DNA of 64,000 nucleotides, taken from assembly GCA_947561395.2 (NCBI GenBank), contig OX387187.1, positions 2,424,976 through 2,488,975 of the forward strand, written 5' to 3'. The stretch comes from Buxus sempervirens (taxonomy: Eukaryota; Streptophyta; Magnoliopsida; Buxales; Buxaceae). Under the pieces are notes generated by a model, which saw nothing but the letters and a program-made list of their open reading frames with translations, did no database searches and had not been told where the DNA came from. The translations under genes and the position numbers were made by a program. This document shows, in pieces, positions 1 to 64,000 of this stretch (position 1 is its first letter; the number at the start of each line of letters is the position of its first letter).

Positions 1-67
1 AAAAAATCTTCGCCGAAATCTTGTTAGATTTTCTGAGCGCATTTATTTTTTGAAATTATTGTGTTTA

Positions 68-188
68 TATCCGACATTTATGTCGAATACAAAGGAACTT
101 TAGTGTATCCGATCAACATGGTCTGATACAAGCAATATTAAGTGTATCCGACCTATGAGGTCGGATCCAAATTGGTGTTTATAAATAG
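68..188 (+). promoter_or_regulatory. U3 promoter: hairpin cluster followed by TATA box
   Basis: A TATA box (TATAAATAG) lies at 180-188. Three inverted repeats sit immediately upstream at about 68-90, 105-130 and 144-167. The clearest pairs ATCCGAC with GTCGGAT around a 7-nt loop. The promoter call is inferred from the TATA box inside an LTR. The hairpins are seen directly. Confidence 0.65.
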
Positions 189-1411
189 GCCAGCAACCCT
201 CCTAGCCGAGGGTTGCTGGCCTTTACCCCTTCTCCCCCTCCCTTGCTGGTGCGAACCCTTCTCCTTCCACCCCTCATTGCCTCCTAACCCCCCTAAACTC
301 ACCTAAAAGACCATTCTACCCCCCTTTTCTTCCTTCCATCTTCATCTCCATCACTTTGAAGCTTGAAGGAGGCCAAGGGTGTGCTGTTGGTGCAAAAGGG
401 GGAACTCTCCGGCTGCTGTTCTTGCTCAAAGGGGGTCCTCACACTCCACACAAGGGTTTAGACCCCAAGGTAATGTTCCCCACCACCTTCTATTGCACAT
501 ATATAAAAATGAGCTCTTTATAAGCATGTGGTATGTTTTTCCTCTTCAACTTGACATTCTCTTTATTTCAAGCATGATTAGTGCCTTTTCTCTCCATTTC
601 CATCTTTATATTGAGCATGGGAAACTCCCATGGTAAGGGGAGATTGCATGGACGGCTCCAAGGCAGAGAGAGGTTCCATTGTACATATTTCTAATGGCTT
701 TTAGGACCTCATGTTACCATTGATTGTTCATTAAAAGGGGGAGGAGTGTTCCCTCTTTGTGTGCATCTCTTGTACCCCATATTAACCTCCCCCTCCTTCC
801 CTTCTCTAGATAATCTTGTTTGGGTTATCTTATGTTTACTTTGGGCATAAAGTTGATGATGATGCATGCTTGTTTAGACGAGATCATATGCATGTTCATT
901 TAAGAATGCATGCTCTTCCGTCATCTTCCTTTTAGTGTTTCTAATTGTTGTTAGAAGAAATATGCATGCTTCCCATTTCCTTTTCATGCATGTCCACGTG
1001 CCATAAGCATGCTCATGTTCACTAGCATGAAATCAGCTCTCCCACTTTTGTATACATCAAGTGAGTACCCATTTCACCTCATATGCACATAGTACATGTA
1101 AGTGCACCAGGGTTTAGGGCATGCATCCTATGTTTGGTTATTTGGTCCTATACTTGTTTATTGTTGTGTGAAGTTGGAAGGACCAAGGTAGGGGCACTCA
1201 AGCCCCCACCTAGCTGTTGGAGAGATCCCAAGAGGGGAGAGGCAAAATCCTAGGCCTTCTCCCCCTTTGTTTGAATTCCATAAACCCAAAGAGACCAAGA
1301 AATAAGGTACCCCCTCATTCCCGAACCATTGTGGGCCCACACAATCATGGAAGTCCATGAGAGGCCTAGAAATCTGAGCCCGCGCGAAAACCCCAAAAAT
1401 GCATGCTGTGT

Positions 1412-1516
1412 TCTGATCCAACAACTCAGATCGGATCAGCCTATCTCTGTTTGTAGCCAACATCATAGGTCGGCTACACGAGTTTTGTGTGTAGCCGACA
1501 ACTAAGGTCGGCTACA
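1412..1516 (+). repeat. Cluster of three CCGAC-type hairpins in the A LTR
   Basis: The cluster holds TGATCC/GGATCA (about 1412-1439), TGTAGCCAAC/GTCGGCTACA (about 1452-1478) and the perfect TGTAGCCGAC/GTCGGCTACA (1490-1516, loop AACTAAG). The homologous place in the E LTR (50817-50883) carries hairpins with other stems but nearly the same loop. Confidence 0.85.
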
Positions 1517-2596
1517 CTATTGAAATTTCAATTTCCATATTTTTTGGTCTTGTGTAGTTTTCATACTCTTCTTAACTGAACCAAATGAACCAGTAGGGTT
1601 TCCGGGTCACCCAGAAACCCAAAATGGGACTAGTGATACACAGTGGGCCTTCCAACGGGGCCCACCAAGCCCGACAGATTCCCTTGAATGTAAATAAGAG
1701 AAATAAGTTAATTGAGTGGGCCGCACCATTCGAGGCCCACTAAAAGACCAAAATGAAGCATGCAGGCTTAGGCTAGGTGTGGTTTGGCCGAGACCGCGGG
1801 CTAGGGCCTATCGGGCCCGTCAAGCCCATTAACCAAACAAGGGTAGGGTTCCTAAACCCTAACCCAGAGTGCCTTGGGCTTTCAAGCCCCCGAACCCAGG
1901 ATCCGGGCCCCAAGCCCAATCCTGGCCCACCATGAAAGAAATTTAATAAAGATAACTCAAATCATTTGGTTACCATTGTGTGTGTAACGCCCCGGATCCG
2001 AGTCACATGAAAAACCCGTAACTCGTATCCAGAGGTTATTATAAACAACAGGATCGCACTACCAGAGTAAGGAAAACATGAATTAAATAGTGCTATGTAA
2101 CAGAGTGCGCTAAAATAACCCCAATGTAAAACTCACATGACCCAATTACACAATCCGCAATTATCGACTCTCCATACGTATCTGAAAAACAAACAGAAAC
2201 AAAAGAGTGAGATACGAATATCTCAGTGAGTAGCACGTGCATGCATCAATACAAATTGATCTAGTTGTAAATTTATGATCGAATAATCACACGAGAAAAC
2301 AGGAAATAACCCAGTGAAATTTGCGTAAACCCTTTGAAAATTTATTTGACCCAAGGGTCTAGGAAGCAAGTTAAACTGTACGTAATTTAACATCGGAAAT
2401 ACCTTCGTCAACAAAATTCCGATCAGTTCCAGAAACCATATCATTATATCCATGCTCCAAGAAAAGACAAATTCCACTACTTCTCCCATAGTATCTAAAA
2501 CAGATAAATGAATAATAAATCCACGTGGTCAATGTCATGCAAATATTTGATTGGTTAATCAACATGCCAGAGCGACCTCCACACCTCTATGTACAC

Positions 2597-2720
2597 AGTT
2601 CCGGCCTACTCAGGGTTTCGGATACTCTAAAATGACGGCCTACTCAGGGTTTCGTCATCCAATGCCGGCCTACTCAGGGTTTCGACATTGACAACCAGGC
2701 CTACTCAGAGTTTTTGGTTG
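2597..2720 (-). repeat. Four-unit hairpin array, constant loop, different stems
   Basis: The loop GCCTACTCAGGGTTT recurs four times. Its flanking arms are AGTTCCG/CGGATACT, ATGACG/CGTCAT (2632-2658), AATGCCG/CGACATT (2661-2689) and CAACCA/TGGTTG (2692-2720, loop with one change). Each left arm is matched by its own right arm. Confidence 0.92.
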
Positions 2721-3335
2721 CTCTACACCGGTCGTGGCAACACTCCATGGCCATGCCATTACTCCAATAAAATAAACGCATCACATTACTAAGCTTAGAC
2801 TCTGGATCCAAGACAAGCTAAACCAAAACAGTAAAACATCGTATAATCTCAATTTCAACATCAAAATAAAACCATTCATTCCACATCATGTATAACTTAT
2901 CACAGTTCATCACCTGTCCCTCTGGACCAAACAGTATCTCAAATACTTTTAGTATTTTCTCATTTCCGCAACACATGCCATTTGAATACAAAACACAGTT
3001 ATTCATACCAAGAAAAACCTTACAATACATTCAGAAATTTCCAAACAAGTGAAACCAGAAGTTAATAATTTCTCCATCAAAACAGTGTATAAATTTAAGG
3101 GAAAACTAATTAGGAACTCCCATTGTTTTGGTATCCAGCACAACACATACAAATAACCTAAACTCAACCTTAGAAGTCTTTAAGAATTTGCCACTAGATT
3201 TTCCTCTAGTAATTGAATAGGTAATGCAGGTTCCAAGGTTCCCAAACAAGTGATTGGTTAAGTGGTATAAACCTCAAGTCATCAAAATCCCCTTGGTTCA
3301 GTCAAGAATCAAATTCGGCAAGTATAATTGGGTAT

Positions 3336-7816: not shown

Positions 7817-7930
7817 GAAAGATGTGCAAAGCGTCACTTCTTTCTCAAAAACCAGAAAGGTTCAAAGCGTCACCTTTTCCAAGAACTAGAATCTAGAAAA
7901 GGTGCAAAGCGCCACCTATTTCTAAGAACT
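7817..7930 (+). repeat. Three hairpins with CAAAGCG loop and different stems
   Basis: The motif CAAAGCG sits in three successive inverted repeats. The arms are GAAAGATGTG/CACTTCTTTC (7817-7844, one mismatch), AAAGGT/ACCTTT (7856-7877) and AGGTG/CACCT extended by AAA/TTT (about 7896-7921). The loop resembles CAAGGCG of the long array in E at 62450-63545. Confidence 0.82.
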
Positions 7931-24253: not shown

Positions 24254-24460
24254 CTGATCTCTTGACTACTCAATTTCAAGCCTTCTTCTAGATCTTAACA
24301 AGTATGGGCTTTGGAAAGCTATTTTGGTACCTGGGGAGAACAACCAGCGAATATTAGTGTAACTTATATTAAAGACTTGTAAAGCATGATTACTTAACTG
24401 TTCAAAAGAATTAATTTATTTGAATCATTTTAAAAATGATAAGGATTCCTGAACCTGATC

Positions 24461-28577: not shown

Positions 28578-29889
28578 ATTTTGATATTTTGAGGGTTCAA
28601 TCACTTTGCCAATGACTTGTTTAGGATCTTAGAAATACTATTTCTTGTTCAAATATCCTGAGATTATTAAGTGGAATTTCTGGTAATCCTTAGGAGTTTC
28701 CAAGGTGAATTTTTGGGCTATCGGTAGGTGATGTTATTGTTCCAAACACTAGGAATACATGATTTAGTTTCCCTTTGTTTATACACTGTACTTGATTTAG
28801 AATTTATTTAACTTGGTTTTACTTGATTGAAAGTTCTGAAATGTATTTATAAAGATTCTCTTGGTGTGAGTAAATGGGTTATTACATCTGGTCTGGTGTT
28901 ATGAGATTTGAGTAAATACTGAAAGTACATGAGGTACTGTTTTGGTCCAGAGGGACAAGTAGTGAGCTGTGTTGTGTTATACATGATGTTGAACATATTG
29001 AATTATTGTGATGTCAAAGTTGAGATTATACGTTGGTTTTCTGTTTTGGTTTAACTTGTCTTGAATCCAAAGTCTAAGCTTAGTAATGTGATGTCTTTGG
29101 TTTTATTGGTGTAATAGCATAGCCATGGAGTGTTGCCACAACTGGTGTAGAGCAGCCAGAAACCCTGAGTAGGCCTGGTTGTCAATGCCGAAACCCTGAG
29201 TAGGCCGGCATTGGATGACGAAACCCTGAGTAGGCCGTCATTTCAGAGTATCCGAAACCCTGAGTAGGCCGGAACTGTGTACATGGAGGTGTGGATGTTC
29301 CTCTGACGTGTTAATTAACCAATCTAAATAACTACATGACATTGACCAAATGTTGGGTTTTGTTTTATTTAGCATGAGACATATTATTGGGCTGTTGTAG
29401 AAAATTTGGTTTTCTCGAGACTTGGTCATAATGATATTGGTTCTTTTGCGATTATGCGGATTTGTTGACAACCGTATTCAGATTTAAATATACATTGATT
29501 TTCATTTGCTATATCATTGTGTCAAACAAATTATTGGAAGTTTAGTCGGATTTATCGAGTTATTGCCATCGTTACTCGTGTAATTATTCGATCCATATTT
29601 TTACAACTAGTAAATTGTATTTGTGCATGCATGTGCTACTCGCTGAGATATTCGTATCTCATTCCTATGCTTTCGTTTGTTTTTCAGATACGCCTGGAGA
29701 GCTCGATACTTGCGGGTAGTTTACTTGGTCATGTGAGTTACTACTTTGGGGTTATTTTAGCTCACTCTGTTTTATAGTTATTGTTATATTCATGTTTTCC
29801 TTCACTCTGAGAGTCCGGTCCTGCGTTACATAATAATCTCTGGATACGAGTTATGGGTTTTCTACGTAACTCGGATTCGAAGCATTACA
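28578..29889 (+). mobile_element. Truncated B-family LTR
   Basis: It is the reverse-strand relative of the solo LTR 1983-4360: the hairpin array, the TTGGTTTAACTTGTCTTG stretch (29045) and the terminus GAAGCATTACA at 29889 all match. The first about 1 kb, including the TATA box, is missing. GTGTG follows directly. It sits between two copies of the C-type leader. Confidence 0.8.
29153..29276 (+). repeat. Four-unit hairpin array, second copy
   Basis: The loop AAACCCTGAGTAGGC recurs with arms CAGCCAG/CTGGTTG (29153-29181), AATGCCG/CGGCATT (29184-29212), ATGACG/CGTCAT (29215-29241) and AGTATCCG/CGGAACT (about 29247-29276). The same four stems occur in the same order in the solo LTR at 2597-2720. 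Confidence 0.92.
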
Positions 29890-32018: not shown

Positions 32019-32036
32019 TGGCGACTCTGCTGGGGA
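32019..32036 (+). other. D1 primer-binding site
   Basis: TGGCGACTCTGCTGGGGA lies two bases after the LTR end. The TGG start fits pairing with a tRNA CCA end. Tat/Ogre-type elements are often reported to use an Arg tRNA; the tRNA was not checked here. Confidence 0.85.
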
Positions 32037-33308
32037 CCTGAGGATTTGAGCCTTTTGGTGTTTTAGTTCATGTTTTTGATATTTTTGGATTTGCTTGCTA
32101 TTTTGTGTTTTTAGCATATTTTTGTTTTGCCTGCTATTTTGTGTTCTTAAGCATGTTGAGTATGTTTTAAATCTGAATTATTGCTTAAGAATTCATGGGG
32201 GTAGAAACATGCTTAATTTTGATTTATAGGATTGTTTCTACAAACATGCGTAAGGGAGGTTCGTTTTGCTGAACCATGTTATTTCTTGCTATATTTTTAT
32301 GATAGCATATTTTAATTTTCAGCACGATCTCCATGATGCGTTTTTGGGTGTATAACATGATCATATGTTTGCATGATTAGATGATTTTTTTTCATAAGCA
32401 TGTTTTAGGTGCTATAGGATTGTTTGTGTATTTGTTTACTTTAAATATGCTTTCATATTATGCCTTGGTTTGTTTATGCATGGCTACGAAAAGAGTGGCA
32501 AGGGTTTGGGACGTTGTGAATGCACCTTATTTTTACAATGCACTGTGCACATTTTATTTTTTACACAGCCTACCCTTAACCTATAGGAAGTTGAACCCAA
32601 ATGTGTGTAGCTTGGCACAACGAGGTCGATACTTCGGAAAGCGAAAGTGAAAACATTCACCTTAGAACTTTGAGCTAATGATGTGATGATAACGTGGATC
32701 TGTGATTCTGGTCATCGCTAGGCTTGAGTGATAAGTTGCCATTAAGCCAAAACCCAAAACCCCTACGATTGAAGGCGGAGTTACACGTTTTTGGCTAAAG
32801 TACACAATTACGTGGGGATATGGGCTTGTAATTGTGAGAAAGCCGTTTGCATGGCTTACAAACCAGGGCATAATGTGGATGCCATGTTGAAGGTAAACAA
32901 GGTAACAAGGTAATCATATTGTTTTGCATTATTTTCATGTCATAGGGGTGTCATGGTGCCCATTGGTTCGGGATAAAATTGGTCCCAAAATATGCAAGTT
33001 TTCTAAAATTGGTGCAGCCCATAGGAAGAGTTTCTAACTCTGTTTAGAATCAATCCTACCCAAGGTTCATGCAAGAGTCAACAAAAAGGGTACCAAATTC
33101 TAGAATATGGTGTCAATTGGGAGGGTACATGTGCCCTCCTAAACATGTGTTTTAGCAAAAAGGTCAAAGTCCACTTTGGGACAGTTTAGAAGCCCTGCAC
33201 TGGGTGAACCGTATGTTTGGATGAGCAATTAAAGTGATCAAACCATGTGAAAACTGGAAAAATATAACAGAGTTCCGTAAAACCGCATTTAGTACACGGG
33301 CTGAGCTT

Positions 33309-33416
33309 GCCCGTATCGGTTATACGGGCTGGGCTCGCCCGTGTTTTCCATACGGTCACGGCTGGCTCGTAATTTGAATACGGGCAGGGCTGGATCGTAC
33401 TGTGTATACGGTTTTC
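33309..33416 (+). repeat. GCCCGTA hairpin cluster in the D1 leader
   Basis: GCCCGTAT/ATACGGGC (33309-33329) is a perfect stem. Further imperfect CCCGTG/TACGG and CGTA/TACG pairs follow to 33416. The same stem family is used in the D1 U3 (30300-30400) and in F (47127-47229). Confidence 0.8.
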
Positions 33417-33565
33417 TCGGAAAATTCAATTTTAATCAGTTTTTCCCACTAAAATCTTCCTTTAACCTTTAAATAATGATAAAGGGAAATGAGTTTGAAT
33501 AAAATGCTTCAAAAAAAATATAAAAAAATAAATGAAAAAAAATGTGAGAGAAAATCCTTTAGGCC

Positions 33566-34664
33566 TCTGAAAGCCTTTGAATTTCAGACTTTTTCTCAAA
33601 AACTCTCTAGGCCTCTGAAAGCCTTTGAATTTCAGACTTTTTATCAAAAATCCTTTGGGCCTCTGAAAGCCTTTGAATTTCAGATCTTTTTCCTCGGGCC
33701 TCTGAAAGCCTTTGAATTTCAGATCTTTTTCCTTTGGGCCTCTGAAAGCCTTTGAATTTCAGAACTTTACCCCTAGGCCTCTGAAAGCCTTTGAATTTCA
33801 GACTTTTCCCCTGGGCCTCTGAAAGCCTTTGAATTTCAGATCCTTTTTCCATTTCGGGACCTGTTGGAAGCCCTAGAATATTCCAACAAACCTTTGCTTG
33901 GGCCGTCTAAAAGCCTCTGAATTTTAGACAATCATTTCTTTGGGCTGTCTATAAGCCTCTGAATTATAGACACGTATCCTTTGGGCCGTCTATAAGCCTC
34001 TGAATTATAGACACATATTCCTTTGGGCCATCTAAAAGCCTCTGAATTTTAGACACAATCTCTTTGGGCCGTCTAAAAGCCTTTGAATTTTAGACACAAT
34101 CTTTTTGGGCCATTTAAAAGCCTCTGAATTTCAAACATCCATCTCTTTGGGCCGTCTAAAAGCCTCTGAATTTTAGACAACCTTTTTGGGCCGTCTAAAA
34201 GCCTCTGAATTTAGACAAATCATTTCTTTGGGCTGTCTAAAAGCCTCTGAATTTTAGACAAATCATATCCTTTGGGCCGTCTAAAAGCCTCTGAATTTTA
34301 GACAAATCATATCCTTTGGGCCGTCTAAAAGCCTCTGAATTTTAGACACAATTCCTTTGGGCCGTCTATAAGCCTCTGAATTATAGACACATATCCTTTG
34401 GGCCTCTGAAAGCCTTTGAATTTCAGATCTTTTTCGTCGGGCCTCTGAAAGCCTTTGAATTTCAGACCTTTTTTCAAAAATATCCCTGGGCCTCTGAAAG
34501 CATTTGAATTTCAGACCTTTTTCAAAAATACCCCTGGGCCTCTGAAAGCCTTTGAATTTCAGACCTTTTGCACAAAAAATATCCTTGGGCCTCTGAAAGC
34601 CTTTGAATTTCAAATCTTTTTCTCTTTTTGTGGGACCTGTTGGAAGCCCTAGAATATTCCAACA
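33566..34664 (+). repeat. Hairpin array, about 26 units of about 41 bp, constant loop and four stem types
   Basis: Each unit is an inverted repeat around GCCTCTGAA or GCCTTTGAA. Type a: TCTGAAA/TTTCAGA (33566-33588 and others, also 34402-34610). Type b: GTCTAAAA/TTTTAGAC (33905-33929 and others). Type c: GTCTATAA/TTATAGAC (33947-33971 and others). Type d: TGTTGGAA/TTCCAACA around GCCCTAGAATA (33862-33888 and 34638-34664). Units are joined by short T-rich spacers with GGGCC. The repeated open frames it generates on both strands are not genes. Confidence 0.95.
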
Positions 34665-34849
34665 ATTCTAAAAAAAAAAATGAAGCAAATAAAGAAAAAA
34701 ATCCAAACTTGTGTTCACCCTGCTTGCACATAGGCATTCATAGGCATGTGAATGAGATTAAATGGGCACTGATATTTTCCATTTATTTTTGCCAGGTACC
34801 AAGTACACTTGCAACCATAGATCCTGTAACCAGATCAAGAGCTCGTGCC

Positions 34850-40831: not shown

Positions 40832-40975
40832 AGAAACTTGTCAGTTTCCATTTAATTTGAGTTACACCCCTATAAATATAGACAAGTAGGTTAGGTGAAC
40901 ACAAGTCTGGGTTTATTTGCCCCCTTCTTCTTTTTTTCATTTTTTTTGTTTTTTTGTTTTTTGTTTTTGATTGGT

Positions 40976-41830
40976 TCTCGTGACCAAACAAAGGTTTTTG
41001 GAATATTCTGAGGCTTCCAAATGTCCTAAAATTTTTTGACTTTGAGTGGTTCTCGTGACCAAACAAAGGTTTTTGGAATATTCTGAGGCTTCCAAATGTC
41101 CTAAAAAAATTTTGACTTTGAGTGGTTCTCGTGACCGAACAAAGGTTTTTGGAATATTCTGAGGCTTCCAAATGTCCTAAAAATGTTTTGATTTTGAATG
41201 GTAAAAATAACCAACCAAAGGTTTTTGGAATATTCTGAGGCTTCCAAATGTCCTAAAATTTTTTTGATTTTGAATGGTTCTCGTGACCAAACAAAGGTTT
41301 TTGGAATATTCTGAGGCTTCCAAATGTCCTAAAATTTTTTGACTTTGAGTGGTTCTCGTGACCAAAAAAAGGTTTTTGGAATATTCTGAGGCTTCCAAAT
41401 GTCCTAAAAATGTTTTGATTTTGAATAGTAAAAATAACCAACCAAAGGTTTTTGTAATATTCTGAGGCTTCCAAATGTCCTAAAATTTTTTTGATTTTGA
41501 ATGGTTCTCGTGACCAAACAAAGGTTTTTGGAATATTCTGAGGCTTCCAAATGTCCTAAAATTTTTTTGATTTTGAATGGTTCTCGTGACCAAACAAAGG
41601 TTTTTGGAATATTCTGAGGCTTCCAAATGTCCTAAAAAATTTTTGACTTTGAATGGTTCTCGTGACCAAACAAAGGTTTTTGGAATATTCTGAAGCTTCC
41701 AAATGTCCTAAAATTTTTTTGACTTTGAATGGTAAAAATAACCAACCAAAGGTTTCTTGGATTATTCTAGGGCTTCCAAGTGTCCCACAAATGTTTTGAT
41801 TTGATTGATAAAAATAACCAACCAAAGGTT
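40976..41830 (-). repeat. Tandem array, about 11 units of about 76 bp, upstream of D2 gag
   Basis: Each unit carries an inverted repeat with arms TTTGGAA/TTCCAAA (for example 41072-41096). In the gag sense its loop is GCCTCAGAATA, the same loop family as the D1 array. A second small inverted repeat in each unit pairs GGT with ACC around TCTCGTG or AAAAATA. Several phantom open frames arise from it. Confidence 0.92.
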
Positions 41831-43909
41831 TTTTCCTTTTCTGAATTTTCTCAGTTTTCAAGTTCAAAAGCTTGATTGAAACATGTTTGAATTGAATTGG
41901 TATCAAAAAATATGACACCTTGGTTCCCTCTTTGAGTTTTAAAATTAGGTTAAATCCTGAAAGAATAGTTTATTTTATTCTTTTTTTTATATTTTTTTAT
42001 TGTTTTTTTATTTTGTATTTTTGGAACATTTTTATTTTGAATGTATCTGGCATGAAATGCCGGATAAGGCTATGGCTTGTTGTATCCGACATAATTAGCC
42101 GGATACACGCATAGGTCCTTGTAACCGACAATATATGCTGGATATGAATAAACTTATTCTTAACCGACCTGAGTTGCCGGTTAATGCCGAAATGGCCCTT
42201 TTTGACTCATTTTTTCACCAGATTATGTTGTTTTCATTCCCACTTGATGTTCACCTTGACTTGGCCTTTAAAACTTGCCCCAAATTGGGCTTTGACATCA
42301 TTCTAACTAAAATTACCAAATTCATGAGGGTACTTGTACCCTCCAAAGTTACATACCAATTGTTGGACTTTGTACACTTGGTTGCCTCTTGCTTGGACTT
42401 TGGGAAGGATGACCATTAAATTGAGTTGGAAACTCATCCTATGGGTTACACCAACCTTAGGTTATATACATTTTTGGGAAAAATTTCATCCCAAGCATAT
42501 GGACACCATGGCTTTTAATTTATATGAAAATAATGGACAGAACATGGCTTTACCTTGCCACCTTGTATTACCTTCAATATGGTGTTATACCTTGGCCTGT
42601 GAACATGCAAACGGCCTTCCCACATTTACACCCAATTCCCCAAACACAATTGTGTAGTTTTAGCTGAAAACGTGTTTCTCCACCTTCAAGCGTATGGTTT
42701 TTGGGTTTTGGCTTAATTGGAAACTTAGAACTCAAGTCTAGTGATGCCCGGAATCGAATCATAGATCCCATTGTCATCACATCATTGACTCGAATTCTAA
42801 AGTGAATGTTTTCACTTTCGCTTTCCGAAGTATCGACCTCGGTGCACCAAGCTACCCACATTCATGGTTCAACTTCCTATAGGTAATGGGTAGGCTGTGC
42901 AAAGTGTTTAAAGTGCTCAAGTGCATTTAAAATTGAGGTACATTCACAACGTCCCAGCCCCTTGCCACTCTTTTTCGTAGCCATGCATACAATTCCAAGC
43001 CAAGGCATATACAATCATCATATTGGAAGCAAAGTACAAGCCAACAAGATAGAAAACACCCAAGCATGCTTATGACAATCATATACCCAAAAGTGGTACC
43101 CAAAACATGATATTGTGCAAACAACAATTAAAACATGGAAAGCATGCTTGAAATCCCCAAAAGTGTTACCCAAATTTCCAAACTTTCATGCTTTTTCTCA
43201 TGTTCAAAGTGTATCATTTCTACCCAAATTGAAGCCTAAAAATTCAGCAACTACTTGACATGGTATAAGAAAGGTTTTGATAGTTGAAACATGCTTGAAA
43301 TCTCCCAAAATATACACTAAATTTCCAGATTTCATGTTCTTCATTTTTTGTGCTCAACATGCATTATTCCTACTCACATTGAAGCCTAAAATACAGCAAC
43401 TAACAATTTGGCACAATAGGTGTTTTAATTAGGGAGAACATGCTTGAAAAGTTCCAAAATAGCTACTGATTTTCCAGATTTTTTTTCTTTTTCCTCATTG
43501 TTTTTATGCTCAAATCAAGTCCCCCTATACCCCAAATCAAAGGCATGGCATAAAAAAAATATTAAGCACAAGAAGACATTGTTCATGGGAATCATGTTTG
43601 AATACCCCTAAAATTCTGAACTCCTAGATTTCATGCTCCTAATTTTTACTTTTAAACCATGGCATTAAAATTCAAATTAGAGAATGTTATCACCAAATGC
43701 ATCAAAATCATGCTTCAAGATAGGCTTCTCTTAAAACAATCTCTAGGCAACATCAAGCAACACATACATGTCTTGATCCATATAAATTTCAGAGCATCCC
43801 AATCTGATTTGAAATACAAAAATATGCACAAATAAAGTAAGCAAAATAGCAAGCATCCAAAAGTAGAGAAAAGCATGAACAAATACACAAAATGGCTTAA
43901 ATCCACAAG
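41831..43909 (-). mobile_element. D2 leader
   Basis: Untranslated; it aligns in part with the D1 leader (42690-43000 with 32460-32880). It holds the hairpins at 42042-42184. The remainder (43140-43700) is AT-rich with nothing recognisable. Confidence 0.75.
42042..42184 (-). repeat. CCGAC-type hairpin cluster in the D2 leader
   Basis: Pairs visible: TATCTGGCAT/ATGCCGGATA (about 42044-42066), TGTATCCGAC/GCCGGATACA (42081-42107, 7-nt loop) and TTAACCGAC/GCCGGTTAA (42160-42184). The loop of the last reads AACTCAG in the gag sense, the same as in the E LTR hairpin at 50817-50847. In D1 the equivalent place holds GCCCGTA hairpins instead. Confidence 0.85.
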
Positions 43910-43927
43910 TCCCCAGCGGAGTCGCCA
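43910..43927 (-). other. D2 primer-binding site
   Basis: The minus strand reads TGGCGACTCCGCTGGGGA, two bases after the LTR end CTCACA at 43930. It has one change relative to D1. Confidence 0.87.
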
Positions 43928-47102: not shown

Positions 47103-47229
47103 TATTTATAGGCAAAAAGGGGCGTGCCCGTATTTGAAGTACGGGCGTGCCTTGCCCGTACTTCAAGTACGGGCGTGCCTTGCCCGTACTTCAAGTACGG
47201 GCGTGCCTTGCCCGTAATTCAAATACGGG
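47103..47229 (-). promoter_or_regulatory. F promoter: four-unit GCCCGTA palindrome array and TATA box
   Basis: Palindromes lie at 47127-47145, 47155-47173, 47183-47201 and 47211-47229, spaced exactly 28 bp. The two middle ones are perfect, CCCGTACTT/AAGTACGGG around one base. On the minus strand the TATA box TATAAATA (47110-47103) lies immediately downstream. Confidence 0.85.
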
Positions 47230-47280
47230 CGAAAAACGCACATTTGCAAATCTCGCGAATCAGCCGTACGAGACGCGTGT

Positions 47281-48397: not shown

Positions 48398-48783
48398 TGT
48401 AAGCACCTTATTTTTGCGCTCCCGGAAGTGCCGGGAATGCAAACCCTAGATAGAAAGTCAAACCCTAAGGGGTGAAAATTTGACTTTTTGATCAGGTGAG
48501 AATTGACCATCTTGCTCCATGTCAGTGAATAGAGGACTTCAATACGGTTCCAATGCAACTAAGTTTGCTGGAATCGGAGTCTGGATGAGGGACTTCGAGC
48601 CGGTCAAACTTGAGAATGAGCCGAAAGTTGACTTTTTGCCGAATCCCAAGCCAGGTGTTTAGCCCAATCCCAATGGATAGAGGACTTCGATACGGTTCCA
48701 ACGCATTTGAGTTTACTCAAATCGGAGTCCGAATGGAAAAGATATGAGCAGTCAAAGCTAAGGGCATTATGGGAATTTTAGCG

Positions 48784-49345: not shown

Positions 49346-50816
49346 CAACCATCCATCTTCCATGATTTAAAAAGGAAATTTTCTCCAACACATGAGGGGG
49401 GGCTACCATTTTCGAATTCTCCAACTCTCTCTCCCACTTCTCTTCACTTCAAGCTCTCCAAGACCAGCTCCCATTCGAACTCCTCTCTCTCAAGAGCTCT
49501 CTTCCACCCTCTCCAATCTCCTCCATTCAAACCACTCCCCTCCATCTCTCTTGGCTTCTCACAAAATTACCTCTCCTTTATCTCTTCCTCTCCATCTCCA
49601 TCCAAGAAAGTGGAAGTGCTGTTGTGTTTGGTGCTGCCAAGGAGGAGGTTACAGCTACGTTTTGGCTTCAAGGAGGTGTCTCCATCTTGCAAAAACACCC
49701 AAGAACCACCAGGTATCACTTCTTGGTCATTTTTACCTTACATATATGAAAACGGGGACTTTCCGAGCATGTTAATATGTTTGTTCTTTCTCATAGTGGC
49801 ATATTCATGTTAATCTCACTTTTCCATACATTTTCTTCTTTTTTGGTACTATGGAGACCTCCAAAGGTAAGGGAGTCTCCATGCACGACCCCATGAGAGG
49901 AGGAGAGTTTTATTGTTTTACTCGAATGCCATGCAAGTCACTATCGTAGGCTATCTACGGGATATTTTAAAAAGGGAGCCTGTTCCCTCTCCTCATCCAA
50001 TGTACCCCTACATAAACCCCCCTCCTCTTCCCTTTCTCTGCATGTTCGTTAGGCCTAGGCATGATTCTTAGGTCCAGACATTGCTAAGATGTGTAGAAAA
50101 TGTATGTTAGGCTGTGTTTTTAGCATGTGTATGGTTCTTTTGTTCTTATTTTGTTGTTTTTATCCTTTCTTGCATGCATGTGGAATGGGGGATTTTCGAG
50201 AACCTCTCTTGTTGATCTCCTGCTGAAAAGTATCATTACATGAGGACGCATGCCAATGCCATGATCCCTTCATTTCCCCAAGCTTGCTGTTTTCTCTTCA
50301 TACTATTTTAGGCATATTGCTAAATGTGTGTAGTGATCATGCCCTTATTGTTAGTCATGTTTTTTTGTATGTACATAAGCATGTTCCCCTCACCCCCGAA
50401 GGCCTTCACTACTCTCTACATGTCCCAACAGGCTGGGAATCCTTGGACCACCACAAGCATGATCCCATCACCCCTTTGAGTCCACTGTCATGGTCAATAC
50501 AAGCTGTTGTTGGGTGCAACAGCAGCAACACCTCCACCCCTTAGCCTCCACTGTCCCAGCAGGTTTGGGAACCCCACGCCATCCCTAGTAGCAACCCATC
50601 GGTGCCATGGAGGAGGGGCCACACAGCCCACTCCCCTCCCCCCCCCCCCCCCCCTTTTTGCTTTTGCTAAAAAGCCCAAAAAAGAAGCCCAATGGGGCTT
50701 CTCCCCTGAACCTGAACCAGTGTGGGCCCATCCAGGGGCCCACACAGCTTATGGAAGACTCCTAGGAAGCCCAGGAAACCATCCCAAATGGCCAAACCCC
50801 GAAAAAGCCTACTTTA

Positions 50817-50883
50817 AGGTGATCCGGCAACTCAGGCCGGATCACCTAGGGCCCATGCGTATCCGGCCACCAAGGCCGAATAC
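50817..50883 (+). repeat. Two strong hairpins in the E LTR
   Basis: AGGTGATCCGGC/GCCGGATCACCT (50817-50847) is a perfect 12-bp stem around AACTCAG. GTATCCGGCC/GGCCGAATAC (50859-50883) has one mismatch and a 5-nt loop. Confidence 0.9.
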
Positions 50884-51914
50884 ATATAGAAATATAAGTT
50901 TTGTGAGTTTTGATGATTCTTTGGCCGAATTTTGTGGTGATTTGAACCAAATCAAATAAACCAACAGGGTTTCCGGGTGGCGACTTGGACCAATGTCCAA
51001 CTTGGAAACACTTGCGGGCCTTCCAACGGGGCCCACCAAGCCCGATAAACCTCAAAGCATGTAAATAAGCAAGTTAAAATGAAATGAACCGATTGAATCG
51101 GATGGGCCAAACCCAGTGCGGCCCGCCCGAGCCTTGATGTGTGGAATAATGTTTAAACTGCGTGGTTTGGCCGAGACCAAGGGCTAAGGCCTATCGGGCC
51201 CGCCAAAGCCCGCTAACCGAACCAAGTTAGGGTGCACGCCCTAGACTTCAAAGAACTGGGCTTTCAAGCCCAAACCTGGATCACGGGCCCCAAGCCCAGT
51301 GACCAGCCCATTTTGGCAAGTTTGAATAAAGCAAATCCAAAATACTTTGGCAACCACCATGGGGGTCCACCTAGGGGCCCGCAAACCAACGTCGGCCCAC
51401 TATTGCATGAAAATCACATAAGGCTCCAACTTGAACAAACCAAATAGAACCAACACACTTAACCAAAGCCCACAGGGCCTCCTAGGCTTAGACCGAGGCC
51501 CACATGGGCACACGGGCTTACCCTAGCCCACCAAGGGCACCGTGGGCCTTCCAACGGGGCTCACCCAGTCAGACTCAGATCACCTAAATTAAGCAAAGAT
51601 AAAATCAACTAAAGGGACCCACACCACTCAGGTGGTCCCGCCAAGACTTAACTAAAATACATGCTGGATTAGGAATCGGGTGAGAACCAAGTAGAAAGCT
51701 GACTCAAACCAGGGAACCCATGGGACTTGTCATCCGACGGGGTGGACGGGGGTGTCTACGGACTTCCCCCGACCACAACCGAGAATCAACTTAGAATCTC
51801 AAGCCGCAGACCAGACTAATAGACAAGACTAGGCACCCAGGTGTCCGCCTACACCCCATCAGGCGGTGGCGACTCCGAACTCTCCCGTGCCGCATTTCCC
51901 ACGGGCGCACAGCC

Positions 51915-53218: not shown

Positions 53219-55952
53219 TGTGCGTGCCTGAAAAATGGTCGCACTGGTAGAAAACGGGAAATCGGAGTCGCCACCGCCTGATGGGGTGCAGGCGGACACC
53301 TGGGTGCCTAATCTTATCTATTGGTTTGGTCTGCGGCTTGAGATTCTGAGGCAGGTCTCGGTTGCGGTCTGGGGAAGTCCATAGACACCCCAGTCCGCCC
53401 CGTCGAATGACGGGTCCCGTGGGTTCCCTGGTCTGAGTCAACTTTCTATTTGGTTCTCACCCGATTCCTAATCCAGCATGCCATTTAGTTAGGTCTTGGC
53501 GGGACCACCTAAGTGGTGTGGGTCCCTTTAGTTGATTTTATCTTACTTAGGTGATCTGGGTTAGATTGAGTGGGCCCCGTTGGAAGGTCCACGATGTCCT
53601 TGGTGGGCTTGAGTAAGCCCATGTACCCATGTGGGCCTCTGTCTAAGCCTAGGAGGCCCTGTGGGCTTAGGTGAAATGAATTGATTTTATATTAAGGTTT
53701 AAGTTTGGAACTTAAGTAATTTTCATGTCAGAAGTGAGTCGGCATTGGTTTGCGGGCCCCTGGGTGGGCCCCCATGTGGGTTGCCAAAAAAAGGTTTAAC
53801 GTATCTTGCTTATATTGGCCAAAATGAATTGGACATCGGGCTTGGGGCCTGTAGTCCAAATTTGGGCTTGAAAGCCCGGTTCCTTGAGGTTTAGGGTTTG
53901 CACCCTTCTTAGGTTTAGTTAATGGGCCTTGGCGGGCCCGATAGGCCCTTACTCGGACTCTCGGCCAAACCACACAATTCAAATATCATTCCACAAAACA
54001 AGTCCGGGTGGACCGCATTGGGTTTGGTCCATCCGGTTTTATTGGTTAAGTTTACTCAACTTGTTTAATTGCATGCTTTTGGGTTTATCGGGCTTGGTGG
54101 GCCCCGTTGGAAGGCCCACTAATGTGCCAAATTGGACCGGTGGTCCATGCCCCGAGTTGGGTTTCCGGATGACCCAGAAACCCTGTAGGTTTGTTTGGCT
54201 TGATTGTAAACATCAAAAGAAATGCAACCACAACAGGAAAATAAGAAAGCCATACGTGCATACATGGATATAAGCAAAACAAAGCAAAAGCAAAGTGAAC
54301 ATGCTAAGACAAAAGGGGAAGAACAGCAACTAGGCTTGGGGACTAGCATGCTTGTCATACTTGGGGATGACATACAAGGAGGTGGGGGTGAGGGGAGCAT
54401 ACTCATTGCATGACAGTCATAGGGCTGCCCTGGAGGTACACGGGCACTTGGTCATGCATGCTGGAAAGTGGGGGAGTGGCAGCAAGGTGTCTTGGGGGAA
54501 ACGGGGGGCATGGCATGCAACTCTTTTAAGAACAAGGAACAATGGGGGCTGTAGCTGCTACCAGCAGCAGCCCCAAAAAGGTCTACATGCTTACCAATTT
54601 GTCATAAAAAACAGTAAAAAAAACACATGTTGCATATTCATGAGAAACTAACAACAACAAAAAAAAACCACCGTAAACGGGTGGACAGCAACTATTACAT
54701 TGAGCTTGGTGAGGCTTGTCTTGCTACCGGGGATGGGAAGCGCTGCTGCTGCCTCCAGCAGCAGCTCATGCATACCATGACTATGGGTTAGGGGTAGTGG
54801 GAGCATGCTTACATATGTATGCCCAGAAAAAAAAAACAGCAAGTGACAACGACAAGGTTAGTGCACCTAGTCGGCAGCACACTTGGTTTTATATAAAAAC
54901 AGCAGCTATGCATAGGGTGGAGGTGTACATGATGATCATGCTATCAAGGAAACAAGCCATACGAACACAAATGGAGAAAATGCATGCTGTAAAATAATAA
55001 TAAGAAAGGGAACAGCAATTATAAATGGGGTTGGAGACATGCTTAACAGGCTAGAAATAACACAAAGTGGTGTGGAGGAGGGGGATCCTTCATGCATGGG
55101 GTTAGGATACCAAACTAGGGAGTGTGGGTGGTTGAACCTACCGAAAACAGCAGCTGTCCAAGGGTTTTAGGCATGATAAAAAACAGCATGTATAAAGGGG
55201 GAAGAGGCCATGCTTGTACATACTCACATACACCATAAATGAGCACACAAAAATGAGAAGGGATGAAAACCGTACAACACAAAAAAACAGTAGGAGAAGG
55301 GATAGAGGGGCTTATAGAGGGGGGTACATGAGAGTGGATGTTAGGGGGAACATTCTCCCCACTTAATGGATGAAAATGCTGCTGGAACCCAAAATAAAGA
55401 GAAGAAAACAGCATATTTAAACTACATGATCTTCTCTCTCTCACATTAAACCTCCGGGGACTTACCTATCTCACCATGGAAGAAGCATAACCCATGGAGA
55501 GCACGGATAAGCAATCAAATAGAGTGAAAACCCATGCCTCATTCAAAGAACAACCCCCCAACAACATGAGGAACTCATATGCTTCAAATGAACCGGAATT
55601 TATATATGTTAAAAAGAAACCTACTAGAAAGCTTACCTTTGAGTTTACAAGTGGTTTCTGAGGTGGGCTTCAACCTCCCTTGAGCATGGATGGAGTTGGA
55701 GCACCTCTTTGCAATCCCCACAGCAACTAACCTCCTTGGTCTTCTTTTTTGAGTAAAAAAATGAGGAAGATGGGGAGGAGAGGAGCTTGAGATAGGTTTT
55801 TCTTTTAGTGTCTTGGGAAGAAATGAAGAGAGATTTCTTTTCTGTTGGAGGAGACGAATGGGAGAGATGGAGAGGGTGGGAGAGCTTGGGAGAGAATGGG
55901 GAAAGAAGGGGTTCGAAATGGTGGTCCCTCCTTGTGTTGGAAATAAAATGGT

Positions 55953-55960: not shown

Positions 55961-55984
55961 CATGGGAGATGAAGGGTTGCATAG

Positions 55985-56997: not shown

Positions 56998-58011
56998 CTT
57001 ACACAAGTATGTCTAGGAGTCGTGCCTTGATAGGCACCAACCATTTTTAGGACTGTGCACACACTTTTGGGTGTTTTTTATGATTGTTTAATAACATAGA
57101 TTTGCTAGATGTTAATAGGATTTGAGTACGTTTTGCTTATGTACATGCCTGTTTATATATTAAGTGCACGCACTTCGAGATCATTTGCACAAATGTTTTT
57201 GGCCAAACCGCTTTCAAAAGTGCACAAAAGAATTTCCTAAACCAAAGTCGCCTTTGGGCGTACATCAAATCGCCTTTGGGCGTACATCAAGCCGCCTCCC
57301 AAGGCACACATCAAAGTTGCTTTTTCAAAGCATACAATAAAGTGGCCTCCAGGCCTACATTGAATTGTCTCCCATGACATAAACACCGTCTCTGGTGACG
57401 CACAATAAACCGTCATCTGTGGCATATTGGGCTAGCCATATAGACAAAAATTAAATCACTTTTGGCGCACATTCTCCATGCCTGGCATGGCATGATGCGG
57501 GCTGTCCAAAATGCATTTTCTGATCTTTATAATTCATTTGCCATTGCATGATTTTAAAGGATTTTACAATCGCTGTTGATCAAGACATGAAGTTTGAGGT
57601 TTAGTCCTCGCAACTTTTTCTCAAGGATTTCCACGCATAAAGCACATGTTGCACGCTTTTTGAAAACTGCCAAGTACGGCAGGGTCTCCAGAGCTTCAGA
57701 TCTCTGAAAGACCATATTACAAGGTTTAAACTTTACATCCTAGGGGTTCTCCGATCAACCGGTGCATTGTCACACTTTCTTCACAATATTGTTTTGTCAA
57801 GTCATGGTTTTTATGCATGAGCCGCATCGTATTTGTTTTCGCCAAGCACGGCACAAAATCACCGCTCAGTGTAATGATCTCGTCACACACGACACTTCAT
57901 TCATAATTAAGGAAGGAACTGATCAAAATTTCTCTTAACCAGGTACAATTTAGATAATTCACATTTAGAGCACCATTCGTAACTTGGCCTTCACAGTGAG
58001 AGAGGACTGCA
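56998..58011 (+). mobile_element. Element E leader, second part
   Basis: It continues the leader after the solo LTR and ends at the gag start. It contains the hairpin array 57249-57425; the rest has no recognisable gene. Confidence 0.8.
57249..57425 (+). repeat. Hairpin array in the E leader, seven or eight different stems
   Basis: Inverted repeats follow each other every 20-25 bp: CGCC/GGCG twice (57249-57260, 57271-57282), GCC/GGC (about 57295), GCTTT/AAAGC (57319-57331), GGCC/GGCC (57344-57355), TGTC/GACA (57366-57379), CGTC/GACG (57387-57400) and, with one wobble pair, GTCA/TGGC (about 57412-57423). The linkers resemble ACATCAAA or ACAATAAA. Confidence 0.85.
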
Positions 58012-59418
58012 ATGAATCCCGCCGAGGCCCCAATTCCATCATCATCACAGCAAAGGGCCAAAGAACAGCCGGCCATAACGGATCCAAGCCCACAGGCAGC
58101 TGTGATGCATGCCACAGGGATTCAAATGCCAGAAATCCCACAGGGGCAACCACCTCAGCCAGCACCCAGGGCAGGGCATCCGCCGCCACAAGACGCTCCA
58201 GTTCCTATCCCTCCTCCATAGCAAGAGCCGTTTGTGCCTATCCAACTGAGACAGGAAGAGCTAGACTGGAATAAGGCACGGGAAGCCCGGTTGGAGGAAA
58301 GATTGGCAGCAATCAAAGAGGATCACATGCTGCAGCTGACGGCAATAAAGGAAGATAGCAGGGCACAGATGGCCGCCATACGTGAGGACCTTTTGAAGCA
58401 GCTTCAACCAAGCACTGTTCGGAACAAGGCTACGCTAGAAAGTCTTTGCTTCTTCTCGGATATCCAGTTCCCAGCCAAGTTCAGATGCCCTGAACTGCAC
58501 CAGTTCGACGGCACAGGCTGTCCATTGAACCACTTGCAATCCTATGTTGGCGACATGTGCCAATATGCGAAGGACGAGAAGATTATGGTTCAATTCTTCC
58601 AAAGATCTCTAACTGGGGCAGCATACGCTTGGTTCTTAAGTCTGGATAAGCAGAAGGTTAAGGCATGGAATGACCTCGCCGCCGTGTTCATTCAGCGGTA
58701 CCACTTAAATAGCCAAGGGGTTCGGACCAGGACTGAATTGCAGAGACTGTCAAAGAGAAACTGCAAATCTGTGAGAGACTATGCTAAGAGGTGGATGGAA
58801 CTGGCAAACGTGGTGCAACCCCCTCTTCTCGAACAAGAGTGGACTCCCCTGTTCATATCCTCGTTGGGGCAACCATACTTCACAATGTTATTGGGACAGT
58901 GCACTAAAAGCTTCACTGACCTAATCATGGCAGCAGAAAGAATTGAAGATGCGATTAAAATGGAGAAGCTCGGAGGCCCCATGACGAGTTTGTTGCATGG
59001 AACAATCCCAAGTAGCATGAGGCAAGAGAACGACGACAACGCAAGTGCAGTCAACCATGTACAACCTTCTGCGCCATTTCACATCCCTTCCTCAAGAAGC
59101 GTGAGCTTCCACTCCACCCACAATGCTCTGTCTCGCCTCAGGGGTCGTCTCACCAAAGAGGAAAGAAAGAATCAGGAGTTCACTCCACTTCCGTACACGC
59201 TGGCTGAATTGTTACCAACACTCCTGAGAGAGGGACACCTGCAATTGGCAACACCGAATCCTAAGGTGTCGAAAATGAAGGACTATGATCCAAACAAGAG
59301 CTGTGAGTACCACATGGGCGTACAAGGCCATGATACTGATGGATGTTGGGGCCTTCGTCATGCAGTCCAAGATCTTCTAGAAGCTGGGGAACTCAAAATC
59401 GATCCTCCGTCGGATTAA
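58012..59418 (+). pseudogene. gag: Element E gag (one premature TAG)
   Basis: The N-terminal part (58012-58218) is Pro- and Gln-rich. A TAG at 58219-58221 follows, then the frame stays open for 394 codons. It shows a coiled-coil-like stretch (ERLAAIKEDHMLQLTAIKED) and the capsid-like domain (FRCPELHQFDGTGCPLNHLQ, QFFQRSLTGAAYAWFLSL, DYAKRWMELANVVQPP). Then come FTPLPYTLAELLPTLLREG and the zinc motif CEYHMGVQGHDTDGCWGLRH. A start at 58234 would give an almost complete Gag, so the protein may still be made. Confidence 0.88.
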
Positions 59419-61454: not shown

Positions 61455-61722
61455 TTGAGCCTTCATATCATTTCTTGTAGACCCTTGAACCCAGCCTACA
61501 TTTCGTCCTACTGTGAAGCCCTTTCTGATTACAGAGAATGTAACATTGAATATTGGACAAACTGGCAATGACAGAACAAAAAAAAGATAGAAAAGAACTT
61601 TGGCTAGACATAATGGTTACCCATAGAGTGAAGCTATATAGGGTTTGAGCTTGTTTATCCTTCATTTCTAAACACTGGAACCAAAGCCTACATTTCGTCC
61701 TACTAATAAGTCCTCTCTGATC
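61455..61722 (+). other. Two copies of the conserved 3' block in E
   Basis: Both have TTTGAGC, a TTTCTNN tract, AGCCTACATTTCGTCCTACT and AAG(C/T)CC..TCTGATYA, at 61455-61532 and 61646-61722. The other elements have one copy each. Confidence 0.85.
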
Positions 61723-62449
61723 ATTGGATCATGATCCGTGGAAATTGACAGAGCCCTCGGACTGGGGTAAGGCACCAAACTCGAATGAGGGAGCCGATGA
61801 GAAAAACATTCCACAACCCCTAACCAAGGGTGGGAAAAAGAAAAAGAGAGAGATCAAGGAAAAGCCAGGGCGAGGCAATGCCAAAGAAACCCCCTGAACC
61901 TAAACATTCCCCTTCGTCCCTACATGGGGCATGCTATTTTAAGGCAAAAAAAAATGTTGAAACCCTTACAGGGAGTGCCGGGAGGCATAACTTCCTAAGT
62001 CTAAATGAGAGTGTCAGGTAACTGACCCAAAGATTACTGGTTCTGCCAATGGACCCACCTGAGGGGGAAAAATCCGAACACTTTAGGAATTCCCAGGAGA
62101 TTTTAATCAAAGAAAAAATTGCTTGAGCTTGCATATAATTTTGATAAATAAATTCCAATTGACTGAATTCCACATGAATTTTTCCAGGTACCAACCAAGA
62201 CCTGAAATAGACAGCCAAAGGCATCACAGCGTATCTCACACGTTGGATGGAGAAAAGAATCGCCACCATGTATTCTCACACGGGGCGCAGAAAGAGTCAT
62301 CACAGTGTATTCACACATCGGTTGACCAAGTTTGTGAAGCCAAAGCCACTGGCGAATGAGTCAGAGATTGGTGAAGGCAACTTTGAATGCAATCAAGAAA
62401 GAAAAAGAAATAACCAAGTCAGAATAAGTAATGGACAAAGACAGAATGG

Positions 62450-63545
62450 AGCAAAGAGCCTCCAAGAATTGAAGAATTAAGGAGCAAGGTGCCTCCCAAC
62501 CCTAACAGAGCAAGAAGCCTCCAAAATTTAAAGACAGAATGGAGCAAAAAGCCTCCAAGAGTGAAGAATTAAGGAGCAAGGTGCCTCCCAACCCTAATGG
62601 AGCAAGAAGCCTCCAAAATTTGAAGACAGATGGAGCAAGAAGCCTCCCAACCCTAATGGAGCAAGGTGCTCCAAGAATTAAAGGCAGCAGGAGCAAGGTG
62701 TCTCCCAACCACAGAGAGCAAGGCGTCTCTCAAGACTGAAAGGGCAAGGCGTCCCTGGAGCAAGGCGACTCCAAAACTAATGGAGCAAGGCGACTCCCAA
62801 CCACAAATGGAGCAAGGTGTCTCCCAACCACAGAGAGCAAGGCGTCTCTCAAGACTGAAAGGGCAAGGTGTCCCTAGAGCAAGGCGACTCCAAAACTAAT
62901 GGAGCAAGGCGACTCCCAACCACTAATGGAGCAAGGTATCTCCCAACCACAGAGAGCAAGGCGTCTCTCAAGACTGAAAGGGCAAGGCGTCCCTGGAGCA
63001 AGGCGACTCCAAAACTAATGGAGCAAGGTGTCTCCCAACCACAGAGAGCAAAGTGTCTCTCAAAACTGAAAGGGCAAGGCGTCCTTGGAGCAAGGTGACT
63101 CCAACACTAAATGGAGCAAGGCAACTCCCAACCACCAAGAGCAAGGCAACTCCCAACCACCAAGAGCAAGGCGACTCCGAAACTAATGGAGCAAGGCGAC
63201 TCCCAACCACCAAGAGCAAAGTGTCTCTCAAAACTAAAAGAGCAAAGCTTCCCTGGAGCAAGGCGACTCCGACCATTCGAATCACACGGAAATATGTCCG
63301 TAAGGAGCAAGACGTCTCCCACCATTTGAATGACACGGAAATGTGTCCCTCAGGAGCAAGGCGTCTCCCACCACTTGAAATACTAACGAACAAGGCGACT
63401 CCCACTTTTGAAATCCCTAAAGAGCAAGGCACCTCCCACATCTAATTGGCACAGGAAGGTGTCCTCATGGAGTAAAGCATCTCCCAACGCTGAAGGACAC
63501 GGAGTCCCCAGAGCAAAGTGTCTCCACAAAGCCGAACAAGTTGTC
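62450..63545 (+). repeat. Long hairpin array with CAAGGCG loop and several stem types
   Basis: About 45 short inverted repeats lie in 1.1 kb. Three neighbours show the principle: AGAG/CTCT (62715-62730), AGGG/CCCT (62741-62756) and GGAG/CTCC (62757-62772), all around CAAGGCGT or CAAGGCGA. Another type, GACAC/GTGTC around GGAAAT, lies at 63332-63347. Early units (62460-62700) have AAGAAGC or AAGGTGC in the loop. All apparent open frames across it are repeat artefacts. Confidence 0.93.
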
Positions 63546-64000
63546 CCCATTCCTGGAAATGATAGAGAATCAAGACATGAAGAAGAAGGCAAAATGACGA
63601 ACCATCGGGCAAGATGGCCCTTTTTGTAATTTTTGATTTCACACTTTTGTAATTAGAGTAGAGCAGGTGTGAGAACCTCCTAGAAGCACTGGACAGCGCT
63701 GAGAGCACCTCCTCACCGGCAGCAGCACCTCCTCCTCTTCTCTTCTCTCCGTCCTATCACTCTCTCCACTTCCCAAATCATCTCCTAGCCGAACAGTTAA
63801 AAAAAAAATTTTAAAGACACTTAAAAGCTTTAATGGAACAAACAAGAAAAGAAGAATATTGTCAAGTGCCTGGCATCAACGCCGAAACAGGTTGGCGAGC
63901 TCAAGTCCAATCTAATCTCTTTCAAACATAAACTAAATGCTAAAGAGTTGCCCCGCAAAAACCCGAAAAGCAAAGGGTAAGGAAACTCCGAAGCTTGGAA

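Follow-up and report, generated by a model that had tools for sequence, protein, structure and literature searches.

Conserved-loop hairpins with co-varying arms in long terminal repeats and leaders of some Ty3/Gypsy retrotransposons of Buxus sempervirens

Introduction

Can the two arms of a retrotransposon hairpin change together while its loop stays the same, and if so, what keeps them paired? The question is raised by a 64,000-nucleotide stretch of Buxus sempervirens DNA (assembly GCA_947561395.2, contig OX387187.1, positions 2,424,976 to 2,488,975; G000:C9:2424976-2488975 in our numbering), referred to here as the window, which carries pieces of Ty3/Gypsy retrotransposons. The original prediction was that at least six repeat sets in the window follow one rule, a constant loop between variable arms with compensated changes, and that one shared process underlies them, either selection of the stem as a structure or self-templated copying of one arm from the other. 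This was partly confirmed. Paired change is a real property of some retrotransposon cis elements, but it was overstated as a rule, and arm copying is unlikely to be the main cause. Among hairpins with the loop AACTCAG, and from one type of GCC-loop hairpin to another, both arms change in concert much more than in shuffled controls, as would be expected of a selected structure. Paired changes distinguish the arms of different families and unit types, whereas in copies of one abundant unit each arm decays on its own. The explanation we favour, with a probability of roughly one half, is that the long terminal repeats (LTRs) and 5' leaders of several Ty3/Gypsy families carry cis-acting hairpins which are needed and selected during replication. 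The hairpins probably act in RNA.

The six sets fared differently. The AACTCAG and GCC-loop sets are strong, the AAACCCTGAGTAGGC set and the leader set of an element called E are real but small, and the CAAGGCG and TTCCAACGG sets are weak. Together with other sets in which the stem is constant and the loop varies, this leaves no window-wide rule, and a process shared across families is not supported. Because the sets were selected by loop sequence, the constancy of their loops is partly a matter of ascertainment.

As a whole the window is rich in inverted repeats. Perfect arms of at least 7 with loops of 4-16 were counted after dropping low-complexity arms, and 152 were found against 43-58 in five dinucleotide shuffles, an excess of about three-fold. 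With arms of at least 10 there were 12 in the window and 1-2 in the shuffles.

AACTCAG hairpins

The strongest set is formed by hairpins with the loop AACTCAG, predicted at three places in the window; at one of them, 1490-1516, the loop reads AACTAAG. The pattern CCRRCAACTCAGRYYGG (CCGRC-AACTCAG-GYCGG) occurs at 9,081 places genome-wide (676.5 Mb in 247 contigs, the basis of all genome-wide counts given here), and the reversed pattern, used as control, at none. The hairpins lie in LTR-like pieces (50817) and in leaders, including that of element B in the window and those of loci L111, L112, L116 and L117.

For the covariation analysis, hairpins were selected by the pattern alone and matches near locus ends were dropped, giving 70 occurrences and 36 distinct rows with 12-base arms. 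At pairs 6-10, which lie outside the pattern, 155 of 180 cells are Watson-Crick pairs, compared with 101 ± 6 and a maximum of 127 in 1000 shuffles of the arms. The covariation score of these loop-anchored rows is 0.370, against 0.133 ± 0.017 for shuffled rows, none of 500 shuffles reaching it, and at most 0.103 when the alignment is slid out of register. Arm shuffles leave the relatedness of the rows in place, and slid registers keep it too. Paired cells make up 84.3% (67.9 ± 1.4 in shuffles), and 69 cells are changed on both sides (31 ± 4 in shuffles); the number of further pair types, 19 against 16.5 shuffled, is not significant.

Pairs 6-9 and 10-12 each show two to four Watson-Crick types. 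Among perfectly paired rows the outer 4-bp stems are GTAT in 14, TGAT in 9 and TTAA in 3. When six stem classes were compared in 15 combinations, the 5' flanks scored 10-18 in 14 of the 15, where shuffled flanks have a median of 14 and a 95% point of 19.

Seven AACTCAG hairpins stand at 15.3-kb spacing at G000:C1:8476221-8568172, in a tandem array of whole stretches, and among the matches listed for the same contig there are several minus/plus pairs about 1.0-1.3 kb apart. Kissing between AACTCAG loops was considered and rejected: an inverted copy 117 bp away is found in 2 pairs among 100 places listed, one of them in L108, which is too rare.

Leader arrays and GCC-loop units

Two elements of the window, A and B, each carry a hairpin array directly before gag, 1.5-2.7 kb (A) and 2.1-3.0 kb (B) past a site resembling a primer-binding site (PBS). 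Since the arrays lie between this site and gag, they are in the untranslated leader. PBS-like TGGCGACTCYRCTGGGGAC is present in the window at 32019 (+), 43927 (-) and 51915 (+) and genome-wide at 3,557 places, with none for the reversed-pattern control; we take these sites to be PBSs from their position and their likeness to plant Gypsy PBS sequences.

Both arrays had been described as having variable, compensated stems, which is true of one of them. At 33566-34664, units of the form GGGCC-stem-GCCTYTGAA-stem' with the loop GCCTCTGAA carry three main stems, TCTGAAA, GTCTAAAA and GTCTATAA, and TGTTGGAA-GCCCTAGAATA occurs twice. At 40976-41830 (minus strand) the loop is GCCTCAGAATA, once GCTTCAGAATA, and all nine hairpins with arms of at least 7 share the stem TTTGGAA.

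To compare types, GCC-loop units were sampled by prefix, 5' arm length and loop, ignoring the 3' arm, in all sampled loci except L002-L038. The sample holds 65 distinct forms, and 23 distinct arm pairs occur in at least two loci. In these 23, 145 of 161 pairs are Watson-Crick, compared with 118.2 ± 4.2 and a maximum of 134 in 1000 shuffles. Fully paired types found in at least two loci are TCTGAAA, TCTAAAA, TCTATAA, TTTGAAA, GTTGGAA, CTTGGAA and TTTGGAA. Paired change between types is real, and few events suffice for it. The types found inside one array are copies that were amplified, and their stems trace to few types. Descent from a few ancestral stems, which the original prediction had named as a sign against it, applies in part, within one subfamily of GCC-loop units.

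Prefix and loop co-occur in the leader units: some families combine GGG with GCCC, another AGG with GCCT. As a speculation, the units may be H-type pseudoknots formed by pairing of GGGC in the prefix with GCC(T) in the loop. Variation in the GGGCC prefix of the abundant type-1 units falls on its first G and its last C, the middle bases being almost invariant. This constraint was tried as an argument for the pseudoknot and set aside: cytosines of the stem have CHG context, those of the prefix and loop CHH, and by reasoning this context alone could explain the difference in decay. At L112:1933-2430 (sense), GCC-loop units share their leader with another array, TTGATTGGT-CTCCTTTTT-ACCAATCAA, whose units measure about 76-81 bp.

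Timing of the paired changes

Genome-wide there are 15,882 exact copies of the 28-base type-1 unit, and single-arm and paired changes were counted at two of its pairs, 2 and 4. The arms of this unit are reverse complements, so C-to-T and G-to-A changes share their local context and differ only in leaving a G.U or an A.C mismatch. Pair 2 has 566 G.U, 641 A.C and 34 doubles against 22.8 expected from the product of the single changes (ratio 1.49, confidence interval 1.04-2.12). Pair 4 has 600 G.U, 697 A.C and 38 doubles against 26.3 expected by the same rule. Over both pairs there are 2,504 single-arm changes and 72 paired changes, 49 being expected. The excess of doubles over the product expectation is 1.4-1.5-fold, or about 23, in a count that pools copies of all ages, and age differences also inflate doubles; it leaves room for slight arm copying or for differences in copy age.

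Genomic type-1 copies decay arm by arm, without G.U preference: the G.U to A.C ratio is 0.87, and outside the arrays the rates of C-to-T and G-to-A change stand in a similar ratio (0.82-0.94). Since the copies decay in this way, the paired differences between types were most likely fixed while the elements replicated. This favours selection and argues against arm copying as a frequent event in genomic copies. The decay pattern does not tell the RNA level from the DNA level.

A G.U excess had appeared in a local sample of related arrays, comprising 435 type-1 units of the window and of 29 loci. There, 38 G.U (C-to-T) stood against 12 A.C (G-to-A), and regions outside the arrays, used as control, showed no C-to-T excess. 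Selection at the RNA level was considered on this ground and dropped, because the excess is gone in the genome-wide counts. The outermost pair of type-2 units went the opposite way, with 28 A.C and 0 G.U.

Smaller and weaker sets

The AAACCCTGAGTAGGC set was found as predicted, with four hairpins and different stems at each of its two places. Positions 1983-3289 align with 29889-28577 at 76.7% in opposite orientation, and the four hairpins come in order in each. CGAAACCCTGAGTAGGCCG occurs at 5,906 places genome-wide, and its control at none. Of 22 loci, 16 gave a readable hairpin 3; one of its pairs is A-T in 7, C-G in 8 and T.G in 1, and among the 8 C-G loci there are 4 in which the adjacent pair is C.A. 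The loop itself is altered in 6 of the 7 A-T loci, so that the loop of this set is not strictly constant. In L102, the set-2 hairpin ATTCCG-GCCTACTCAGGGTTT-CGGAAT is repeated in tandem, in three copies about 117 bp apart, one of them mispaired.

In the E leader, a greedy pick gives 7 non-overlapping 4-bp hairpins, against 2.0 ± 1.2 and a maximum of 5 in 500 shuffles. They comprise four of those originally described, with stems CGCC, GCCT, GGCC and TGTC, and three others. The set exists as a single copy, two units have the same stem, and the spacer is no less constant than the loop.

The CAAGGCG and TTCCAACGG sets show little paired variation. The CAAGGCG array has 27 loop matches, 21 with GGAG/CTCC, AGAG/CTCT or AGGG/CCCT and 6 mispaired. 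Its 14 distinct rows are paired at 49 of 56 positions, compared with 40.9 ± 2.3 and a maximum of 49 in 1000 shuffles, and a free count of 4-bp hairpins in the array is ordinary (7 against 8.2 ± 2.5). The stem GTGGGCC of the TTCCAACGG set is nearly constant, also in L107 and L108: a different outer pair (ATGGGCC) is seen once, at 11609, and a longer stem once, at 11843.

In the GCCCGTA/TACGGGC sets (30323-30401, 47125-47231) and the TATCCGG clusters, the stem is constant and the loop variable. At 47106-47231, hairpins of the form GCCCGTAC-TTCAA-GTACGGGC stand in 28-bp units just past a TATA-like stretch, with a constant stem and some varying loops.

RNA folding

Better folding than in shuffles was seen for four clusters, some containing AACTCAG and some not, with z scores of -5.3 to -6.3, where six control stretches gave -2.1 to +0.4. 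The CAAGGCG stretch 62690-62889 is less stable as RNA than its shuffles. Two LTR clusters are about equally stable when folded as antisense (z -7.7 and -6.1). A search of the 64-kb window against Rfam gave no match at gathering score, though Rfam need not contain such elements.

Interpretation

If the favoured explanation holds, the hairpin would be needed while the element replicates, and a lineage that lost pairing would be replaced by one that restored it, whereas copies fixed in the chromosome would no longer be under selection. For the AACTCAG and GCC-loop sets, the likely contact would be the conserved loop, presented by a stem whose arms are free to change as long as pairing is kept. 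The most likely level would be the full-length transcript, where the hairpins would be bound by Gag or by an RNA-binding protein of the host. Roles in packaging, dimer formation or translation control may be guessed from the place before gag. The tandem arrays would have grown through duplication of few stem types.

Several results weigh against this explanation. Among 12 leaders taken from PBS sites, AACTCAG hairpins are found in 4 and GCC-loop hairpins in 5. Folded as sense RNA, the A and B arrays show no unusual stability (z -2.3, +0.6 and +0.1), and the two type-1 pairs show no G.U preference genome-wide (1,166 G.U against 1,338 A.C). The inner AACTCAG pairs 1-5 have no excess of pairing (157 of 180 against 151.2 ± 2.9 shuffled, maximum 159), and AACTCAG pairs with changes in both arms number 7, not significantly different from the 6.9 of the shuffles. 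The 3' flanks score 21-27 in 4 of the 14 comparisons of AACTCAG classes whose 5' flanks score like shuffles, above the 95% point, which the next hairpin of the cluster may underlie, and classes ATAA and TTAA align on both flanks and are plainly homologous.

It would also be possible that the hairpins arose few times, were duplicated in tandem and were passed between elements as modules, in which case the covariation would reflect inherited stem types without continuing selection. The three main stems of array A, the constant stem of array B, the number of exact type-1 copies and the few distinct outer AACTCAG stems all agree with this. However, the variety of Watson-Crick types at AACTCAG pairs 6-12 requires a series of paired changes, and the flanks mostly do not align between AACTCAG classes, so we consider a mere handful of ancestral units unlikely. 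Pairing might instead matter in DNA and not in the transcript, the inverted repeats being sites of DNA-binding proteins or extruded LTR hairpins. The mispairs without strand asymmetry point this way, though only weakly, since dead copies, if unselected, cannot show such asymmetry. So do the antisense stability of the two LTR clusters and three such hairpins directly before TATA-like TTTATAAATA at about 178-187, which we take for a TATA box. A protein that reads the arms should not tolerate variable arms beside the fixed spacer AACTCAG, however, and clusters of a related kind are found in the leader too, over 1 kb past the PBS-like site; a function in DNA seems rather unlikely. Next to that TATA-like stretch, a perfect 15-bp hairpin, AGGCCAGCAACCCTC-CTAGCC-complement, follows directly (to 222), and the site 178-222 is possibly at the transcript start of an LTR.

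Self-templated arm copying would let stems stay paired in the absence of selection: template switching, in replicating DNA or during reverse transcription, makes one arm the template for the other. Monttinen and Loytynoja describe such a process (PMC8794818). Paired transversions of the kind it would make do exist (GTCTAAAA to GTCTATAA; C-G or A-T in hairpin 3), the E leader stems are mostly different within one array, and doubles exceed expectation at both type-1 pairs. Yet the doubles are few beside the single-arm changes and their excess is small, in copies where age differences work in the same direction. Arm copying is probably not frequent in genomic copies, and we regard it as very improbable as the source of the paired stems.

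Selection on cis-acting hairpins is the explanation we retain, within the families and types that support it. An extension of it, that one host or element protein reads an ACTCAGG-tip hairpin across LTR families, each with its own stem, we hold to be improbable. It draws on a likeness noticed post hoc between CCGRC-AACTCAGG-YCGG in Gypsy LTR pieces and leaders and CCGGCCTACTCAGGGTTTCGG in another LTR family.

To our knowledge, packaging and translation signals of plant retrotransposons are poorly known. If active elements do need these hairpins, the thousands of genomic copies would be a natural record of required transcript features. For any hairpin family with many copies, setting paired change between lineages beside unpaired decay in fixed copies is also an easy means of telling selection from arm copying.

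Comparison with known systems

Leader signals for packaging and dimerisation are described for MMTV (mouse mammary tumour virus; PMC8096270) and barley BARE (PMC3735527). As in those elements, A and B have hairpins in the leader between PBS and gag, and base pairing is conserved in the AACTCAG and GCC-loop sets. Here the leaders hold many hairpins each, the tandem arrays are long and include several stem types, LTR pieces have similar hairpins as well (1405-1520, 2597-2720 and 50817 lie elsewhere, probably in LTRs), and Rfam has no match; the comparison is made from sequence position and pairing. Retand-lineage Gypsy elements, as far as the main text of PMC11963269 describes them, share with ours the plant-type Gypsy origin and family-specific tandem arrays in a long internal region. 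Their arrays lie between pol and the 3' LTR, whereas A and B lie before gag, and the word hairpin does not occur in that main text. PMC8794818 describes template switching that yields compensatory hairpin changes. Its hairpins resemble our sets in that both arms change in step while the loop is conserved; among the type-1 copies that we counted, single-arm changes far outnumber paired ones. We found no title or abstract start on covarying hairpin arrays in the leaders of plant LTR elements, which is weak evidence of novelty as most subscription journals lie outside the coverage.

Features of the window

Table 1. Hairpin sets and PBS-like sites in the window (z, folding score against shuffles)
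Position	Strand	Feature	Evidence or remark
1405..1520	+	Cluster with AACTCAG/AACTAAG loops, stems CTGATCC and TGTAGCC	Probably LTR; RNA fold z -5.7
2597..2720	+	Four hairpins around loop GCCTACTCAGGGTTT in LTR-like piece	z -0.5
7817..7930	+	CAAAGCG-loop hairpins, small set	z -3.5, more stable than shuffles
29153..29276	-	Four-hairpin set homologous to 2597..2720	z -2.5
32019..32038	+	PBS-like TGGCGACTCTGCTGGGGACC, start of element A leader	Position and likeness to plant Gypsy PBS
33290..33420	+	Element A leader cluster, ACGGGC/GCCCGT hairpins, loops TGGGCTC and others	Sense RNA z -5.3
33554..34665	+	Element A leader array, GGGCC-stem-GCCTYTGAA-stem', ends TGTTGGAA-GCCCTAGAATA-TTCCAACA	Adjoins gag, ATG at about 34850
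40957..41833	-	Element B leader array, TTTGGAA-GCCTCAGAATA-TTCCAAA, 76-bp units, one stem	Nine hairpins with arms of at least 7
42030..42180	-	Element B leader cluster, TTAACCGGCAACTCAGGTCGGTTAA and TATCCGG-type hairpins	z -5.4
43908..43927	-	PBS-like TGGCGACTCCGCTGGGGAC of element B	Position and likeness to plant Gypsy PBS
50817..50847	+	AGGTGATCCGGC-AACTCAG-GCCGGATCACCT	Probably LTR, about 1.1 kb before PBS-like site 51915; z -6.3 for 50810-50900
57249..57425	+	E leader hairpin set, upstream of gag frame 58222-59418	z -2.7
62450..63545	+	CAAGGCG-loop array, three main stems, weak case	z +2.9 for 62690-62889

The Ty3/Gypsy pieces of the window comprise gag matches at 23021-23932 (-), 34607-36106 (+) and 58222-59418 (+), a weak integrase match at 47667-48407 (-) and a match to reverse transcriptase-RNase H at 18527-18985 (-). 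Two LTR-like pieces, 50986-51888 and 53254-54147, are 81% identical in opposite orientation. Upstream of a gag frame, a 48-bp tandem repeat (24452-24821, minus strand) carries AGCC-GTTT-GGCT, and its arm variants AACC, AGCT and GGCC are uncompensated. Elsewhere in the genome, three gag matches at 50.7-kb spacing (C8:37443082-37545266) mark a tandem array of whole stretches.

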